IMG/VR virus record: IMGVR_UViG_3300030451_005413
Coordinates: 1-24,802 of that record
Strand: one strand, 5' to 3'
DNA: 24,802 nt
DNA from: a virus
Positions 19,041-24,718 of the stretch are shown in pieces (within the stretch, counting starts at the first letter, position 1; each line of letters opens with the position of its first letter). A program made the position numbers and the translations under genes. The notes beneath the pieces are model-generated. The model saw only the letters and a list, made by a program, of their open reading frames with translations. It did not search any database and had not been told where the DNA came from.

Positions 19041-19415
19041 TGTCACTCGTAAATGACACGCATATTCAGCCGCGAAGGTAGTAATATTTGCGTTTGTCCG
19101 CCCCGTGTCCGTCCCGTGTCACTTTTGACTGACACGCTAAACGCAGTTTGGCCGTGCATTAAATGCCATTTGTCCAAATGTCAGCCGATTTTGGAAACTC
19201 TATAGGGGTATATATATACACACTTTATTATTTACGATTTTTAGCCCTAATCTATTTTCTCGCGTGTAAAAGTTGAGAAGGGTGACAAATGGACAAACGC
19301 GAACTAACCCAGGTTCAAAGCCGAATAAGCGTGTCACCTTAGGTGACACGGGAAATGACAAATCGACTTACAACCTGCGTTTAGCGTGTCACTTGCATTT
19401 TGCAAAACTGACACG
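19041..19415. other. Candidate replication origin or multi-operator: TGTCA/TGACA inverted repeats around an AT-rich tract
   Basis: Four inverted repeats with half-site (CG)TGTCA/TGACA(CG) occur at 19041-19061 (8-base spacer), 19115-19137 (8), 19330-19350 (7) and 19385-19415 (17, itself holding a TTGCA-TTT-TGCAA-like dyad). The third has 10-base arms CGTGTCACCT around one central base. Between them, 19194-19259 is AT-rich (TATATATATACACAC, TTTATTATTTACG) and contains ATATACACA, one base from a DnaA box. Iteron-like sites, an AT-rich tract and a DnaA-like box together are typical of origins. They could equally be a cluster of operators for a phage repressor. No gene is supported here. Confidence 0.4.
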
Positions 19416-19441
19416 CCTCCGGCTCCGGTGGGCTATTCGCG

Positions 19442-19568
19442 ACGTATTAAGGTGTCCACTTCGGCTATGATGCCGCGGCGCTGCGCTCGGGGCGCTGGCC
19501 CTGGTGGGTACGAGGCGCATCTGACATACGGCTGCCCTAATAAGCTACATGACCCCACGTATTAAGGT
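19442..19568. repeat. Direct repeat ACGTATTAAGGT, two copies 115 bases apart
   Basis: ACGTATTAAGGT occurs at 19442-19453 and 19557-19568. The bases between and after them hold GC-rich stretches, a GGGGTACCCC palindrome near 19601 and A-runs, but no gene with a ribosome-binding site. Confidence 0.5.
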
Positions 19569-19682
19569 CTCAGGGCAAAAAAATAGCGCGTATTGTCGAT
19601 GGGGTACCCCTTCGGAAAAAAAATCCCAAAATCCCGAGACCGCCCTCTCCCCCCCTCGGGCCGCGGCGCGCGCGCGAAAACG

Positions 19683-19712
19683 CTTGCATGCTGCAAGTGA
19701 TAACGATTCTCA
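19683..19712. promoter_or_regulatory. TTGCA dyad plus Fur-box-like site, copy 1
   Basis: CTTGCATGCTGCAAG (19683-19697) is followed directly by TGATAACGATTCTCA (19698-19712). The second part differs from the Fur core TGATAATNATTATCA at two of 14 defined positions. A second copy lies 102 bases downstream. No gene start is adjacent. Confidence 0.5.
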
Positions 19713-19784
19713 CTTGAGGGGACTTCGTGTCTTCGTGACACCATGGGGGGGATAGTGTCGGCGTGACACCATGCCCCGTGATCC

Positions 19785-19814
19785 CTTGCATTATGCAAGT
19801 GATAATGATTCTCA
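19785..19814. promoter_or_regulatory. TTGCA dyad plus Fur-box-like site, copy 2
   Basis: CTTGCATTATGCAAG (19785-19799) is followed by TGATAATGATTCTCA (19800-19814). The latter differs from the Fur core at a single defined position. The two 30-base copies agree at 27 positions. Differences inside the TTGCA dyad fall at its centre, so the arms are conserved. CGTGACACCATG, itself present twice (near 19734 and 19763), lies between the copies. Confidence 0.55.
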
Positions 19815-19829
19815 ATACGGTGCGGGTCC

Positions 19830-19864
19830 GTGTCCCGTGTCCCGTGTCCCGTGTCCCGTGTCCC
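19830..19864. repeat. Five tandem copies of the heptamer GTGTCCC
   Basis: Five perfect GTGTCCC units in a row, preceded by a partial unit and followed by GTCC. The heptamer shares GTGTC with the half-sites found further left. It could be a protein-binding array or a slippage product. Confidence 0.9.
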
Positions 19865-19870
19865 GTCCTA

Positions 19871-19978
19871 TTGAACAGGGTTCAACAGTGGAGACATGGT
19901 CAACCGGGTTGACTATCCCCGGCCTATGCAAGAAGCATGCCACACCCCACCACGGGGGCAAGAACTACAGCTGTAGTT
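19871..19978. repeat. Cluster of short palindromes
   Basis: TTGAAC-AGG-GTTCAA (19871-19885), GTCAACCGGGTTGAC (19899-19913) and AACTACAGCTGTAGTT (19963-19978) are perfect dyads within 110 bases. Between 19979 and 20296 I see no further strong dyad and no credible gene. Confidence 0.6.
19899..19919 (+). repeat. Direct repeat copy 1: GTCAACCGGGTTGAC followed by TATCCC
   Basis: This 21-base element recurs identically at 20297-20317. Its first 15 bases are a perfect palindrome with one central base. It resembles a dimeric repressor operator. Confidence 0.7.
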
Positions 19979-20296
19979 TTGAGCCGTTTTCGCGTGTAGG
20001 CGACTTTCCAGGGTTCTGAATGGTACGGATCGCCTGCAAGGGTTCGGTGCTCTGGGGGTACCCTGACAGTCCAGCAAACCCTATATGTCGCAAGCCTGCA
20101 CGCTCTCTTCATTTACCCTATTCGCCGTTTCCGTCCCACTATTCACTAACCCCTGGCACGACTTTTGCATGGGGGCTTAGTGGTACGCTACCTCTAACCG
20201 GTACACACCATCTTTTGCCTCTGTTCGGTATCTTTCTGCTTGACAGTCTGGACGGAACGTGTAACGCGCGTGCCCTTTCCCCCCAAAAGAGAGGTA

Positions 20297-20317
20297 GTCA
20301 ACCGGGTTGACTATCCC
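20297..20317 (+). repeat. Direct repeat copy 2: GTCAACCGGGTTGAC followed by TATCCC
   Basis: Identical to 19899-19919, including the non-palindromic TATCCC tail, so the two copies have a defined orientation. Confidence 0.7.
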
Positions 20318-20349
20318 GGCCCGGCCGGACATGCGACATGGAATACACG

Positions 20350-20798
20350 ACAAAGATGTCGTCTACTTATGTGCTTGAAATCCCTCGGTTTTCACATCCC
20401 CTTGACATCTACACTTGTAGTAGACGACTACGAACGGCTTCGTAGTTGACCTGTCAAGGGCAGATAAGTGCGTGAAATCACCCGGTTTTCTGGTGTGTCC
20501 GGTGCCTCATCTCGTCTATTGTTCCGCGGTGGTCGATGTTGTAGACGAATCGCGACATGGATGTCACGGTTTCGAGGGGTCGAAACCTCGTCGGCCACCC
20601 CGATGAATACGACATGTCACGGACGAACGCCGACAATGACCGCGACATTGATGTCGCAGTTGGGGGGTCTGTCAAGACTTCATGCCACGTCGCCAGATGT
20701 TGGCGTTTGTCCTGCACTTTTGAGAAAGTCAGAGAAAGTTATCTACTCACGAGTAGACAAAAGGGCCGTTTTCGGGCCCCGGGCATGACATAGATGTC
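20350..20798. repeat. GACATNNATGTC dyads, four dispersed copies
   Basis: Copies are at 20350-20360 (one imperfect position), 20554-20565 (GACATGGATGTC), 20644-20655 (GACATTGATGTC) and 20787-20798 (GACATAGATGTC). Three of the four are preceded by CG or CGCG-type sequence. GACATGTC at 20611-20618 is a related palindrome without spacer. A GGTTTCGA-GGGG-TCGAAACC hairpin (20568-20587) lies among them. The last copy is five bases upstream of the -35 of the promoter proposed for the large RNA. Confidence 0.6.
20371..20490 (+). other. Three-way-junction-like fold flanked by direct repeats
   Basis: Arms CCCTTGACA (20399-20407) and TGTCAAGGG (20452-20460) enclose two hairpins: CTACA-CT-TGTAG and ACTACGAA-CGGC-TTCGTAGT. 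Together they can form a closed three-way junction. On either side lies a 23-base direct repeat with the core TGAAATC and CGGTTTTC (20371-20393 and 20468-20490; 20 of 23 bases identical). The unit could be a structured RNA, a cruciform replication signal or a recombination site. No protein is encoded. Confidence 0.5.
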
Positions 20799-20802
20799 CC
20801 GG

Positions 20803-20832
20803 TTGGCACGGTTTCACGGTGATCTATATCAC
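20803..20832 (+). promoter_or_regulatory. Promoter-like sequence with CRP-like dyad, upstream of the large RNA
   Basis: TTGGCA (20803-20808), a 16-base spacer and TATATC (20825-20830) resemble a sigma70 promoter. GTGATCTATATCAC (20819-20832) overlaps the -10 and differs from the CRP core GTGATCTAGATCAC at one base. A bound CRP-family protein here would be expected to block polymerase. An alternative -10, TATAAA at 20833, has no -35 at usable distance. Confidence 0.4.
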
Positions 20833-20836
20833 TATA

Positions 20837-22028
20837 AACGCCGATGAACACGGGGTGGCACGGGGGTGGTATGGCCCGTGCTATATGGGTTGGCATCACA
20901 CGACATACCCGGCTGCCTTCCTTGACACGCTCTCAAGCTGTCATCTGAGGAAATCTCTCAAGATTATTCTTGACGCTCTTCGGCAACCGGCATAGCTGTC
21001 CTTCATCAGACAGTGAACGCGGGCCTCTCCGGTGAGGGGCACAAAGCTCAGCCACACGATGCTGAGCAAGCCGTCCTAACAGGGCGCAGCGGTCCCGACG
21101 GGAACCGGACTTTGACAACCCCACCTTCTCATTCATGACCGGCCGGTCATGACCCCTCCTCAGGATGAACCTGAGACGCTGGGGACCCGGCCGGACAGGA
21201 TGGTCCGATGACTTAAAGTCACGGTCTATCCTTGGTTATTCGGATTCAAGACGAGCCCCGTAGCGACACGCTTTCACGCTGTCAAGCGGGGTAGTGATAG
21301 AACAGGATGAACCCGGGCTTACAAGCCCTTATGGCAGGGTTCGCGGTCGGTGACTTAGACCTTAGGGGGAGATGTCCCCTAACAATGTGGCTTTGTATCA
21401 CGTTGCAACGGGTCAACCGGCCATCTCGATTAACGCTGTAGCTCAGCGGGTTACGCTTTCAAGCTGACTTTTCGGGACATAAGAGTTAAACATCAGCGAC
21501 CTACGGTGTGCAAGCCGGACATGGGAGCGCTCAGAAGCAAGCATGCTTAGCAGCATGACGACGATCTATCCGACGGATTAACGGCCTCACCGACGCACCG
21601 CGTATACGGTCGGGATTCACAACATCTAAGGTCTATGTCAATGCCTCAGGCTTGACGGTGATACAGTGTTGCCCTTTCAGTGGATTGATGACGATAACCG
21701 AGGTTAGATGCTTGCAAAAGGGACGTTGGAAGGTGGGGTGTTGAGGTCGCGGTCTGCGGTCTTTGAAATCTTAGATGCTACGGGTACCGAGGGGGACGGC
21801 TAAGCCGCTTAACCTGAGGATGAGGCGGCTTAGTCGCTCGGTACGCTGATAGCTGAAACAGCCGGTCTGGTACCCGGCGCTGCAATCCCGCAGCAAACTC
21901 CCCACTAACACTCACCGAGCGTCACCGTCTAAGCTTGCTTATCAGCATGCTGCCAGCGCTTTCCAGCCTTGACGGTGACGCTCAACATCTACCGCACCGA
22001 CCGCGCTCTCTTGCCGGTCGGTGCTTTT
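20837..22028 (+). ncRNA. Candidate giant structured non-coding RNA (about 1.19 kb, GOLLD/ROOL-like)
   Basis: The stretch has no credible gene but is packed with perfect hairpins: TCAAGA-TTAT-TCTTGA (20958-20973), GCTCAGC/GCTGAGC (21046-21067), a 20-bp palindrome (21133-21152), CTCAGG-ATGAA-CCTGAG (21159-21175), a stacked GAACCC/GGGTTC plus GGGCT/AGCCC pair (21309-21342), TTAGGGG/CCCCTAA (21362-21382), CATGCT-TAGC-AGCATG (21542-21557), a two-stem hairpin GTACCGAG plus CTAAGCCGC (21784-21844), GCTGC-AATCCC-GCAGC (21879-21894) and a 13-bp stem (21917-21929 with 21971-21983). Long-range pairs also fit (21356-21365 with 21626-21635). One hairpin motif occurs three times. The region ends at a strong terminator and starts after a promoter-like site. 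Phages are known to carry large ornate RNAs such as GOLLD and ROOL; I cannot match this one to either. The 5' end is approximate. Confidence 0.6.
21994..22028 (+). terminator. Intrinsic terminator of the large RNA
   Basis: A 10-bp perfect stem pairs 21994-22003 (GCACCGACCG) with 22015-22024 (CGGTCGGTGC), loop of 11 bases, followed by TTTT. It closes the structured region and precedes the first plus-strand gene by 54 bases. Confidence 0.85.
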
Positions 22029-22082
22029 ACTTATGATTTCTGGCTGTGATTTACAGCATACAACCCTGACAATGGAGTGAAC
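22025..22082 (+). promoter_or_regulatory. Leader cassette A with hairpin, before the 127-aa gene
   Basis: After the terminator T tract come ATTTCTGGCT, a hairpin GCTGT-GATTT-ACAGC, CATACAACCC and a GGAG ribosome-binding site before GAACATG. The same order, with a changed but still paired hairpin, occurs before the 218-aa gene. A promoter may be embedded: TTTTAC, 17 bases, GATTTA is the best fit, but it is weak. Confidence 0.55.
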
Positions 22083-22466
22083 ATGCAAGGACGAACCAAG
22101 AAAGACGGCCGCGATACCCTCAACAAACGCGCTCAGCGGCGCGTCGCCGCCATAGCTGAGGCCCTGCTCGGCGAGCGTGACCCCTGGAATGAGATGTGGG
22201 CGGTGTCCGACTACACCGTCATCGTCACCGCCGACGATGCGTCGGTGAAGGCCACGCTCCCCTGGCTCATCGAGTGGTCCAAGGACCGTTCGAAGGAGGG
22301 CCGGATGGCCATGACCCGGGCGTCTACCCGTGTGCGGGTCCAGATTAGGGCACCCGGGTGCCCCACCAAGTGGTTGTTGCCGAAGGAGGCCGTGGCTGTA
22401 GCCACGGCCATCACGGCCGTGGCACCGGCCGAGCCGGACTTCTCGGGTGAGGGGGGTCAAGCTTGA
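22083..22466 (+). CDS. Small protein of unknown function (127 aa)
   Basis: I chose the ATG at 22083, placed after GGAGTGAAC exactly as the next gene's ATG follows GGAGGGAAC. A GTG two codons upstream is the alternative. The N-terminus is basic and helical (MQGRTKKDGRDTLNKRAQRR). The middle has a strand TVIVTADDASVKATLPWLIE, then VRVQIRAPGCPTKWLLPKEA and a C-terminal Ala/Val helix. No family is recognised. It is the first gene of the plus-strand block, lies between two terminators, and so probably has its own transcript. Confidence 0.75.
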   Translation: MQGRTKKDGRDTLNKRAQRRVAAIAEALLGERDPWNEMWAVSDYTVIVTADDASVKATLPWLIEWSKDRSKEGRMAMTRASTRVRVQIRAPGCPTKWLLPKEAVAVATAITAVAPAEPDFSGEGGQA

Positions 22467-22484: not shown

Positions 22485-22524
22485 CCCGCCCGTCGTCTCT
22501 ACTTTGCAGACGGGCGGGGCTTTT
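22485..22524 (+). terminator. Intrinsic terminator after the 127-aa gene
   Basis: A 10-bp perfect stem pairs 22485-22494 (CCCGCCCGTC) with 22509-22518 (GACGGGCGGG), loop of 14 bases, then GCTTTT. It ends the transcript of the 127-aa gene. Confidence 0.9.
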
Positions 22525-22576
22525 GATATACATTTCTGGCTATTATTAGCATACAACCCACACAACAGGAGGGAAC
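22521..22576 (+). promoter_or_regulatory. Leader cassette B with hairpin, before the 218-aa gene
   Basis: Same order as cassette A: T tract, ATTTCTGGCT, hairpin GCTA-TTAT-TAGC, CATACAACCC, ACAACAGGAGGGAACATG. Between A and B the hairpin keeps pairing although the fourth pair changes from G-C to A-T and the stem loses one pair. Best embedded promoter guess: TTTTGA, 17 bases, TATTAG. Confidence 0.55.
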
Positions 22577-23233
22577 ATGACCGCGAAAGACCGGTTCATG
22601 GACCTTGACAGCGACCTCTGTGAGGTCGTCACCGCCCGCTATGCGGGCTACCTCATCGACGGCTACGATGCCGTCGGATGGTACCAGCGTGAGGCAGGGG
22701 CGGTCGCCGCCCTTGCCAACCACGTCGGACTTGACCCGGTGTGGCTCGCCGGCCTCACGGCCGCGCTCAGCCCCGTCATCTCTGTCAAGGGGAACGCCTT
22801 ACGCGTTCTCCGGGCCATCCAGGCATGGCAGTCCGGTGCTACCTGGGAAGCCGCCGTGGCGGGGCTTCCCTGCACGCCAGGGTCGGTCAAGACCCATGCC
22901 TTGGCCTTCCTGGCCAAGGGCTGGCAGGGGCTCGGCCCCAAGACCGGCCCGTTCGGTCGAAACCTGTCCGGGCAGGGTGTCCACGTCACCGTGGACACCT
23001 GGATGTGCCAAGCGGCCGGTGTGCCGCACGCATCCGTCGCCCGCTCCTCATCACCGGAGCGGCTGGCATGCGAGGCGGCATGCGCTGCCCTTGCCGATGC
23101 CCTGGACATCCAGCCTGCAGCCGCTCAGGCGGCTGTCTGGTACGGCGTACGCCGTGCCAAGGGTGTGAAGGATAGCCGCGACAGCTTGGCTGAGGTCTTC
23201 GCCGCATGGATGGCGGGGACGTTGGCCCTCTGA
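22577..23233 (+). CDS. Phage protein resembling the DUF7178-type family (218 aa)
   Basis: ATG (22577) follows GGAGGGAAC. The protein is helical. Landmarks are ALSPVISVKGNALRVLRAI (residues 63-81), SVKTHALAFLAKG (103-115), VHVTVDTWMCQAAGVP (135-150) and AAQAAVWYGVRRAKG (182-196). From memory this pattern (ALSP with a following Asn, K..AF, VDTW or VDRW, QA.VW) is shared by uncharacterised phage proteins often labelled DUF7178; the helical layout with an 'aD.W' core recalls HhH-type DNA glycosylases. I cannot confirm either. It has its own leader and terminator upstream and is followed by the repeated three-hairpin leader. Confidence 0.7.
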   Translation: MTAKDRFMDLDSDLCEVVTARYAGYLIDGYDAVGWYQREAGAVAALANHVGLDPVWLAGLTAALSPVISVKGNALRVLRAIQAWQSGATWEAAVAGLPCTPGSVKTHALAFLAKGWQGLGPKTGPFGRNLSGQGVHVTVDTWMCQAAGVPHASVARSSSPERLACEAACAALADALDIQPAAAQAAVWYGVRRAKGVKDSRDSLAEVFAAWMAGTLAL

Positions 23234-23323
23234 CCCAAGGCCGAAACGCCGGCTATGCCGGTGTCGTAGGGTGAGACCCTGCCTGACGATGGCCGTCAGC
23301 AACAACGAAAAGCGAGGTACAAA
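23234..23323 (+). promoter_or_regulatory. Three-hairpin leader repeat, copy 1
   Basis: Hairpins: ACGCCGGC-TAT-GCCGGTGT (23246-23264), AGGGT-GAG-ACCCT (23268-23280) and CTGACG-ATGGC-CGTCAG (23283-23299). Then an unpaired A-rich stretch and GCGAGGTACAAA before the GTG start. Copy 2 is nearly identical, though the flanking genes are unrelated. Confidence 0.75.
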
Positions 23324-23644
23324 GTGGATATCATCAGCACCGTTTATCGTGGCACCTGCCGGGGACTGTTGGAAAGCCGGTTCCATCACGACGTTGGGTA
23401 TTTCCTGCCCTCCGTCGTCGTCATCAAGGGCGATGGCATGGAGGCCGACACATTGGAAGTCTTCAACAGCAACCTACACACCGGACTGCTGGATCGCCTT
23501 CACGCCTGCTGGGCGGGCGAACTCGACACCTGGGGTGTCGAGGTCATCGTCACGTACTCCTCCTTGCTGGGTGCGGACGTCGTCATCGTCACGATGACGG
23601 GCACCTGGGATGGTGAGGGGGAGGTGGCTTATGACGTGCTTTGA
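23324..23644 (+). CDS. Small acidic protein of unknown function (106 aa)
   Basis: The start is GTG (23324), in the context GAGGTACAAAGTGGA shared with two later genes. The protein reads MDIISTVYRGTCRGLLESRF, then alternating strands (YFLPSVVVIKGDGMEADTLE, VEVIVTYSSLLGADVVIVTM) and an acidic end. It looks like a compact alpha-beta protein with no motif I recognise. Its stop overlaps the next gene by 14 bases. Likely a small early or host-takeover protein. Confidence 0.75.
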   Translation: MDIISTVYRGTCRGLLESRFHHDVGYFLPSVVVIKGDGMEADTLEVFNSNLHTGLLDRLHACWAGELDTWGVEVIVTYSSLLGADVVIVTMTGTWDGEGEVAYDVL

Positions 23645-23855
23645 AAGGGCCAGCGATGGCCGCGCCCGTGTGGTCGGGTCTCACGACCCACGCGGGCAGA
23701 TGAACGGCTTTGGGGGCGTGGTGTACACGCTCGCCGTGGGTGAGGCGTGCTACCGCGATGCCCTGTCTGCCCTGGGGCGTCGGCACCGCCGACGTATCGA
23801 AGTAGTCACTGGCCCCTGCACCCATGAGTGTGAGTGGTGCGGAGGCATCGACTGA
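23631..23855 (+). CDS. Small protein with C-terminal Cys cluster (74 aa)
   Basis: ATG (23631) follows GGGGGAGGTGGCTT, which lies within the preceding gene's end. The frame is open further upstream, but without a site. The protein is basic, with GFGGVVYTLAVGEACYRDAL and RRHRRRIEVV, and ends in GPCTHECEWCGGID. The C-x3-C-x2-C cluster may bind zinc together with a nearby His. Family not recognised. It is co-transcribed and translationally coupled with the 106-aa gene. Confidence 0.7.
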   Translation: MTCFERASDGRARVVGSHDPRGQMNGFGGVVYTLAVGEACYRDALSALGRRHRRRIEVVTGPCTHECEWCGGID

Positions 23856-23944
23856 CCAAGGCCGAAACGCCGGCATAGCCGGTGTCGTAGGGTGAGACCC
23901 TGCCTGACGATGGCCGTCAGTAATCATGAAAAGTGAGGTACAAA
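23856..23944 (+). promoter_or_regulatory. Three-hairpin leader repeat, copy 2
   Basis: It keeps all three hairpins of copy 1. The loop of the first hairpin is ATA instead of TAT. Most other differences are in the unpaired stretch before the ribosome-binding region (TAATCAT versus CAACAAC). It ends in GTGAGGTACAAA before a GTG start. Confidence 0.75.
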
Positions 23945-24205
23945 GTGGAAAAGTTCAGCTTTGAGAAGAAGCTCGTCGAGCTTCACGGCGAGGATGTATG
24001 TCAGGCCCTGCGCTTCAAGGCGCAGGTCATCGACACCCTGGCGTCCCTGCCGGGGGGACGCGGCCACGTGTCCGTGTTCCTCGCCGCCTGGACGGAGGGG
24101 GGATGGGAGCACCTGTCCCCCTGGGGACACAGCTACACGACCGGCGCGTGGGGCCTTTTCAAGGCCGCAAACGCCTTCGTGCTTGGGAAGGAGGAGGAGG
24201 TATGA
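23945..24205 (+). CDS. Small protein of unknown function (86 aa)
   Basis: GTG (23945) is chosen because it sits in the repeated GAGGTACAAAGTGGA context. The protein starts MEKFSFEKKLVELHGEDVCQ, continues with a helix (LRFKAQVIDTLASLPGGRGH) and an aromatic second half (WTEGGWEHLSPWGHSYTTGA), and ends in an acidic stretch. Stop and next start overlap as ATGA. No family is recognised. Confidence 0.7.
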   Translation: MEKFSFEKKLVELHGEDVCQALRFKAQVIDTLASLPGGRGHVSVFLAAWTEGGWEHLSPWGHSYTTGAWGLFKAANAFVLGKEEEV

Positions 24206-24387
24206 AGTCCAAGGCATGGAGCCGTGCACGGCTCCACGTCGGGGATAACCCCGGCGGTCGGCGCTTCTTGAAGCGTCACCGGGCACGGTGGGCACGTCGT
24301 CGTGCCCGTCAGGCCCTTGCCTCCGGTCAGTGGGAGATGCTCGCCCCTCGGGAGCGCCTCCCGACGGGAGAGCGTGAGTTGTTCTGA
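24202..24387 (+). CDS. Very basic small protein (61 aa)
   Basis: ATG (24202) overlaps the previous stop (ATGA) and has GGAGGAGGAGGT directly upstream, a strong site. The protein is extremely rich in Arg and Lys (FLKRHRARWARRRARQALAS), which suggests nucleic-acid binding. It is too short to assign. It is coupled to the 86-aa gene. Confidence 0.65.
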   Translation: MKSKAWSRARLHVGDNPGGRRFLKRHRARWARRRARQALASGQWEMLAPRERLPTGERELF

Positions 24388-24424
24388 CCGTAGGCCGAAA
24401 CACCGACTAAAAGCGAGGTACAAA
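24388..24424 (+). promoter_or_regulatory. Short leader repeat, copy 3 (lacks the hairpins)
   Basis: It has AGGCCGAAAC, then ACCGACTAAAAGCGAGGTACAAA before GTG. Both ends match copies 1 and 2, but the roughly 50 bases with the three hairpins are missing, as after an internal deletion. Confidence 0.65.
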
Positions 24425-24718
24425 GTGGAAAACATGAAGTGTATCATGGAACCCCGCCCCATGTGGGGCGAAGAGCCAACCAACGGCGGACGGCCGGTGC
24501 CGTCGTTCTTGGCGACCGTCAAGGCCATAACTGAGGCCGTCATGGCCCACACGGGCATCCCCACCCGCTGCGAGGCGGGCGAGGTCACCATCATCCTCCG
24601 TGAGGAGGGTGAGGTGCCCAGGGTCATGACCCTGGACGACGCGGTCACCGAGTGTGACCTCACGGTCGCACTGTACGTTGACGGGTTTGGCACCGTCAAC
24701 ATGACCAACAACTACTGA
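24425..24718 (+). CDS. Small protein of unknown function (97 aa)
   Basis: GTG (24425) in the GAGGTACAAAGTGGA context gives MENMKCIMEPRPMWGEEPTN. An ATG three codons later is the alternative. The middle is a helix (FLATVKAITEAVMAHTGIPT), followed by strands (EVTIILREEGEVPRVMTLDD, LTVALYVDGFGTVNM). It is probably a small alpha-beta protein. No family is recognised. Confidence 0.7.
   Translation: MENMKCIMEPRPMWGEEPTNGGRPVPSFLATVKAITEAVMAHTGIPTRCEAGEVTIILREEGEVPRVMTLDDAVTECDLTVALYVDGFGTVNMTNNY

Follow-up and report, generated by a model that had tools for sequence, protein, structure and literature searches.

Putative type II hammerhead ribozymes with a core-complementary tail between small genes of a viral contig

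In bacteriophage T7, the early polycistronic mRNA is punctuated by RNase III sites—long duplexes that are cut by a host protein. Natural type II hammerhead ribozymes clustered between prophage genes were described by Perreault et al. in 2011, and mRNA processing was proposed there as their role (PMC3088659). The same paper states that 4 of 18 hammerheads fitting the consensus failed to cleave in vitro, names Bcep176 among the phages with active core variants, and, for the haloviruses HF1 and HF2, places the 5' end of a transcript at most 3 nt from the site of a hammerhead that precedes an early helicase gene (PMC3088659). In a 2023 paper, the reason for the association of hammerheads with phages was still called unknown (PMC10085705). 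Trimming of tRNA was proposed for the Theta ribozymes of gut phages (PMC10879173).

Repeated leaders and their ribozyme anatomy

We analyzed a window of 24,802 nt, which is a whole virus record. Its leftward genes include those for the portal and the large terminase (PHROG matches), and a rightward block of small genes, starting at 22,077, holds three repeated leaders (Table 1). Searches of the annotated phage collection with the DNA and proteins of the window returned no relatives; a relative of its portal at 60% (L124) and a weak relative of the gene upstream of the first leader (L125) carried no hammerhead in the motif scan.

The original prediction of two nearly identical leaders of about 90 bases and a third, shortened one was borne out: positions 23235–23338 and 23856–23959 are 88% identical over 104 nt, and a 52-nt repeat family ties these full copies to 24384–24435. 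As had been stated, all three leaders end in GAGGTACAAAGTGGA (exact at 23314, 23935, and 24415; the three share their final 15 bases) and precede GTG-start genes (starts at 23324, 23945, and 24425); GAGG is located 6 nt upstream of each start. Folding predictions for copies 1 and 2 contained the three hairpins that had been described (z of −1.9 and −3.3, respectively); no stable fold was predicted for copy 3 (z of +1.7). The gene products differ at the PHROG level: five small proteins of 60–106 residues had no common PHROG family. A search of the record itself for further leader copies returned the three known places only, and tolerating as many as 3 mismatches yielded no fourth GAGGTACAAAGTGGA place in the window (mean of 0.67 matches in shuffles). 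Many copies were found in other viral contigs, so the lack of further copies, named beforehand as a refutation, does not hold.

Table 1. Features of the window (positions in the 24,802-nt stretch; ribozyme parts and cleavage sites are predicted)
Feature	Position	Strand	Remarks
Window, whole IMG/VR virus record	1–24,802		linear, probably partial
Gene upstream of putative ribozyme 1	22577..23233	+	PHROG 3842, function unknown
Putative type II hammerhead, copy 1, with latch tail	23238..23299	+	R1 58.9 bits at 23238–23294; motif scan
Stem II 5' strand GGCC, copy 1	23239..23242	+	pairs with 23291–23294; core GAAA next at 23243–23246
Stem-loop III, copy 1	23247..23263	+	7 bp, loop UAU, then UC; predicted cleavage after C23265
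Stem-loop I, copy 1	23266..23282	+	6 bp, UGAGA pentaloop; 23266 is the first base of the predicted 3' product
Core CUGACGA, bulged U, and stem II 3' strand GGCC, copy 1	23283..23294	+	motif scan, R1
Latch tail GUCAG, copy 1	23295..23299	+	with C23294 complementary to CUGACG 23283–23288
Shine–Dalgarno GAGG and GTG start, copy 1 unit	23314..23326	+	106-residue gene 23324–23644
Putative type II hammerhead, copy 2	23859..23920	+	latch tail 23916–23920; predicted cleavage after C23886; R1 59.0 bits, 23859–23915
Shine–Dalgarno GAGG and GTG start, copy 2 unit	23935..23947	+	gene 23945–24205
Decayed copy 3	24385..24427	+	AGGCCGAAAC, part of stem III, Shine–Dalgarno and GTG kept

Read as RNA, copy 1 consists of GGCC, GAAA, stem-loop III (CGCCGGC, UAU, GCCGGUG), UC with the predicted cut behind it, stem-loop I (GUAGGG, UGAGA, CCCUGC), CUGACGA, U, and GGCC, which is the order of a hammerhead with stem II open. 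The motif scan identified in both full copies the CUGACGA and GAAA core with the GUC cleavage triplet, as well as three stems of 7 (III), 7 (I), and 4 (II) pairs; the seventh pair of stem I is a U-A at the edge of the UGAGA pentaloop, and the stem otherwise has 6 bp. Stems I and III are closed and stem II (GGCC/GGCC) is open. We applied the N7 numbering and the hammerhead core consensus. By core, stems, and model match, both full leaders are assigned to the type II hammerhead ribozymes. The stop codon of the upstream gene ends 5 nt before stem II of ribozyme 1, and the predicted cut lies 58 nt from the GTG in both full copies. Copy 3 matches the 5' part of copy 1 in 21 of 25 nt and then has a gap of 53 nt—the cleavage site, stem I, core, and latch—in an alignment read by hand (MAFFT placed copy 3 wrongly). 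Judging by its sequence, copy 3 is a dead remnant.

No Rfam match at the gathering threshold was found in the window. RF02276 (Hammerhead_II) scored 26.7 bits on copy 1 (E 0.015) and did not reach its gathering cut-off of 37; this cut-off is a model threshold and not a chemical criterion, and relatives with complete anatomy also fail it. Other sub-threshold Rfam names in the window (sX13, MIR160, and others) were set aside as chance. R1 is a covariance model from 14 other phage sequences with the window left out, which was built from copies with the bulged U only because MAFFT misplaced the gap of the U-less ones. R1 matched the two full copies with 59.0 and 58.9 bits (E about 3e-15, a rough value), spanning all 54 positions, and its third-best place in the window had 14.0 bits. 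In the same 15 loci, 4 hammerheads were found at the Rfam gathering threshold versus 31 R1 matches. The best R1 match in phage PaP3 had 16.3 bits (E 0.043) and was not convincing: the PaP3 hammerhead of 2011 is either outside this sub-class or missed by R1. No R1 match was found in the stretches of L419 (Magia) and L421 (QDWS), and L362 had no annotated phage relative.

It had been proposed that the leaders are RNase processing sites, as between the early genes of T7. RNA processing between early genes is retained from this proposal; the anatomy is that of a hammerhead and not of an RNase III site. The hairpins are indeed repeated between early genes, as substrates of RNase III or another host RNase would be. 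An RNase III site, however, is a long duplex of about two turns, and the leaders have no long duplex: their separate predicted stems do not exceed 8 bp. Furthermore, it is the hammerhead core, rather than any duplex feature, that is conserved across relatives, the stems varying freely with compensation, and the leaders have the invariant hammerhead core letters and match a hammerhead model built without the window copies at 59 bits. Thus, we consider cutting by a host RNase highly improbable.

The second proposal was a common translational control element. It would make the hairpins and GAGGTACAAAGTGGA a control leader whose likeness to a ribozyme is decayed or inactive. The constant 58 nt between the predicted cut and GTG in both full copies and the Shine–Dalgarno region retained even in copy 3 agree with it, whereas the core, cleavage triplet, and all stems are intact in both full copies, and copy 3 is an example of what decay looks like. 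The start-associated sequences of mycobacteriophages, which had been offered as a comparison, are short conserved elements close to the starts of many genes in one phage. The short element near the starts in the window occurs in three exact copies in 24.8 kb, all within the duplicated ribozyme unit, and is explicable as a Shine–Dalgarno sequence and GTG start duplicated with the ribozyme; duplication of the unit can thus account for the common start region. No sign of a distinct start-associated system was found at the leaders. Such a leader is, in our estimate, very unlikely.

Upstream of the block, no convincing gene was seen in the roughly 3 kb (19100–22050) that separate the leftward structural genes from the rightward small ones. 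This stretch contains short repeats, including a 21-nt inverted pair (19130–19150 and 19371–19391); neither a tRNA nor an Rfam family was found there. By eye, the genes at 22077 and 22577 have a second short leader in common, TTTCTGGCT ... GCATACAACCC, at 22030–22085 and 22520–22576. The one before 22577 follows a terminator-like hairpin (22502–22519) and overlaps a sigma-70-like match (22523–22552), a possible promoter for the block that carries the ribozymes.

Relatives in viral contigs and their position between genes

Two IMG/VR scans used core letters only (GGCCGAAAC, GTC, CTGANGA, and GGCC with or without U) and returned at least 119 and at least 120 stretches. Apart from stem II and the first pair of stem III, they left all stem letters free; added scans asked for N7 as A/G or T with TCAG and left N' free. 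The resulting sets of 274 and 331 matches are samples, and counts refer to the matches listed. The earliest search pattern, GGCCGAAACGCCGG, was too short (120 stretches) and was rejected; besides the window and its own copies (L001–L003), type II hammerheads whose stem II had 3 bp or more were found at the GGCCGAAACGCCGG loci L006, L098, L104, and L109. Those of L006 (693–745 and 1527–1579) are of another kind, with stem II GTC/GAC; the L006 tail AGGTC could pair with loop I and looks by eye like a classical pseudoknot, resembling that of the 2011 paper.

Stems are kept in the relatives: among the matches listed, 229 of 274 had both stems III and I (at least 4 bp), compared with a mean of 0.74 and a maximum of 2 when the stem letters were shuffled; real sequences with several GTC positions were judged by the best of them and shuffles by a single one, a bias that is small beside 229 versus 0.74. 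Pair counts in set A2 are biased, its rows having been picked for having stems, and stem II is uninformative on compensation because its GGCC was set by the search. Stem I had 7 pairs in 221 copies among the matches listed. Among the distinct copies listed there, A preceded GGCC in 207 of 208, and stem-loop I was 17 nt long in 185 of 208, with a pentaloop mostly of the form U...G. A pseudoknot between loop I and the tail showed no excess over shuffles among the matches listed, with 0.21 against 0.24 for tailed and 0.13 against 0.13 for tail-less copies; the fixed pentaloop suggests that another tertiary contact may join stems I and II.

The exact stem I/III stretch of the window was found in no viral contig. 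All 30 viral records scanned whole, which had been picked for having one copy, contained copies; the densest place, in a 67.6-kb viral contig (L251, G001:C1:2576-7559), had 11 type II matches in 5 kb. The same pattern gave 36 stretches in the bacterial genome collection, most of them without stems and therefore set aside as chance.

A copy was counted as placed at a stop codon if it began −12 to +20 nt from the stop of an open frame that was 60 codons or longer. This was the case for 205 of the 231 flanked copies among the matches listed (random places in the same loci: 14.7% of 1155), and 140 of 231 additionally had a start with a strong Shine–Dalgarno sequence within 60 nt downstream (random: 3.5% of 1155). 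Lying after the stop codon of one gene and before the ribosome-binding site of the next, the elements fit self-processing of phage mRNA. For the downstream genes, 20 of 57 eligible ones, chosen by hand from a shuffled list, were looked up in PHROGs: no virion gene was found among the 20. They included genes for an anti-restriction protein, RusA, an ATPase, a glutamine amidotransferase, and a T7-kinase-like protein; 6 had no PHROG match, and those without a named product were of unknown function. From position and sampled genes together, the elements are intergenic and tend to precede non-structural genes. At L165:685-1275, the downstream gene matches PHROG 15752, a T7-type protein kinase; the targets described for this kinase are host transcription, RNase III, and RNase E.

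A tail complementary to the catalytic core

Directly after stem II, a tail N'UCAG is complementary to CUGAN7G of the core, and the two can form a 6-bp hairpin, CUGAN7G/CN'UCAG. Because its strands are taken from the catalytic core and from part of stem II, this hairpin is incompatible with the active fold; the third predicted hairpin of the full copies is a competitor of the catalytic fold. Among the distinct copies listed, TCAG followed stem II at offset 1 in 70 of 208 and at offset 2 in 7, and at each of the other offsets in 0 to 5 copies. No description of a core-complementary tail was found in the literature searched, PMC3088659 included, which covered few subscription papers and neither bioRxiv nor figures; we regard the tail as newly seen here, its novelty not being proven.

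The tail changes with the core. Among the matches listed, N' was Watson–Crick complementary to N7 in all 90 stem-verified distinct tailed copies and, in a looser context, in all 109 distinct ones (71 C-G, 36 U-A, 1 A-U, and 1 G-C). The stem filter of at least 4 bp removed 78 of 331 matches, and the tails of these pair with N7 too (31/31 distinct, among the matches listed). Both C-G and U-A were present in 6 of 52 flank-similarity groups among the matches listed (L313 and L258, whose stem I is identical, are an example), and contig 3300048502_000104 has both latch kinds in one phage. N7 was C in 59 of 77 tailed versus 52 of 131 tail-less copies among the matches listed (Fisher p 3e-7). For a control pattern, CTGANGA...NTCAG spaced alike but lacking GGC in the loop, complementarity was seen in 10 of 25 cases, above the expected quarter; this small set may contain some ribozymes.

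These changes bear on the reading that the ribozymes are active but have no function for the phage, being selfish or neutral repeats. Duplication and decay are seen in the window (copy 3), and some hammerheads are perhaps not functional according to PMC3088659. Against this, most copies among the matches listed are placed precisely between stop codon and Shine–Dalgarno sequence, and matched changes of core and tail point to selection on the element in place. We regard this reading as quite unlikely as a whole; selfish spread into gene borders is still conceivable.

The latch is not needed in general, since 139 of 229 distinct ribozymes among the matches listed have no tail; tailed and tail-less copies were mixed in 6 of the 23 loci with two or more copies, also among the matches listed. 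Mean probabilities among the matches listed were as follows: stem II in tailed copies fell from 0.57 in RNA ending at stem II to 0.16 with 30 more nt (tail-less: from 0.52 to 0.36), and the latch of tailed copies had 0.81, rising to 0.94 in the 3' product alone. For the window, the modeled 3' products had latch probabilities of 0.99 (copy 1) and 0.94 (copy 2), and the resting folds disagreed: the latch had 0.75 in copy 1 and 0.17 in copy 2, where stem II had 0.79.

Before cleavage, the latch might serve as an off-switch (timer or attenuator) rather than mainly locking the product afterwards; we hold this sub-reading, which is compatible with the best explanation, as a possibility short of even chances. 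The fall in stem II probability agrees with it, as does the nearest-neighbour model, in which the latch beats stem II in 83 of 90 tailed copies among the matches listed. Moreover, the upstream stop codon is placed so that a terminating ribosome, by the size of its footprint, could cover the stem II 5' strand. The energy gap, however, is small, with group means of −0.2 to −1.9 kcal/mol and one copy at −3.1, in energies that ignore the tertiary contacts stabilizing the active fold, and window copy 2 is predicted to keep stem II.

Proposed self-processing of the transcript and comparison with known systems

Very probably, both full leaders are type II hammerheads that would cut the phage transcript in cis, with the core-pairing tail as a latch and copy 3 dead. 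The ribozyme anatomy, the stems of the relatives, the place between genes, and the covariation of tail and core come from computation; from these we infer cleavage, protection of the mRNA, and the role of the latch as follows. A rightward polycistronic transcript would cut itself in cis between C23265 and G23266 and between C23886 and G23887. The upstream message would then carry stem III at its 3' end with a 2',3'-cyclic phosphate, and the downstream message would have a 5'-hydroxyl and open directly with stem-loop I, its first base lying 58 nt before the GTG. Such ends, with the cyclic phosphate behind one hairpin and the 5'-hydroxyl on another, should withstand exonucleases and 5'-end-dependent RNases, and both pieces of the message could gain protection through them. 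Once the 5' piece is gone, the tail would form a second hairpin at the new 5' end; the closed latch should favour product release and oppose re-ligation. In uncut RNA, the tail would compete with the active fold.

An attenuator timed by translation or transcription, which we think unlikely, would go further: a ribosome on the upstream stop codon would hide the GGCCGAAA strand, so that the latch forms and the message stays whole, and with no ribosome there the RNA would be cut. If so, many unrelated phages would choose separately at each gene whether their early mRNAs are split.

For the self-processing reading, a large sub-class of elements, mostly under the Rfam threshold and situated between a stop codon and a ribosome-binding site, argues for a role in the processing of phage mRNA. 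The latch would be a built-in competing fold in a natural RNA enzyme, and sister copies of the same phage without the tail would offer a direct test.

The elements are most similar to the type II hammerheads of bacteria and phages (RF02276; PMC3088659): stems I and III are closed and stem II is open, the core is CUGANGA/GAAA, they cluster between phage genes, and processing of phage mRNA was proposed for them. Unlike those, the relatives found here combine a stem I fixed at 6 bp, closed by a UNNNR pentaloop, and an A-GGCC stem II in which a U bulge is common; they have no loop I–tail pseudoknot above the level of shuffles and often carry the core-complementary tail. R1 found the hammerhead of Burkholderia phage Bcep176 (12167–12237 of NC_007497), located directly behind gp32. 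It has the same 17-nt stem-loop I, with a UUAUG loop, right after the stop codon of a gene, and differs in its core variant CUGCUGA and in a stem II that is not GGCC.

The HHphage elements of HF1 and HF2, likened here by their description in PMC3088659, have a hammerhead 13 nt upstream of an early-gene start; they belong to archaeal viruses and have a variant core. Theta ribozymes (PMC10879173) are also small phage ribozymes with proposed RNA processing independent of host RNases, but have an HDV-like fold and trim tRNA 3' ends. The RNase III sites of T7 resemble the elements in the punctuation of an early polycistronic mRNA and differ in the long duplex and in the cut made by a host protein.
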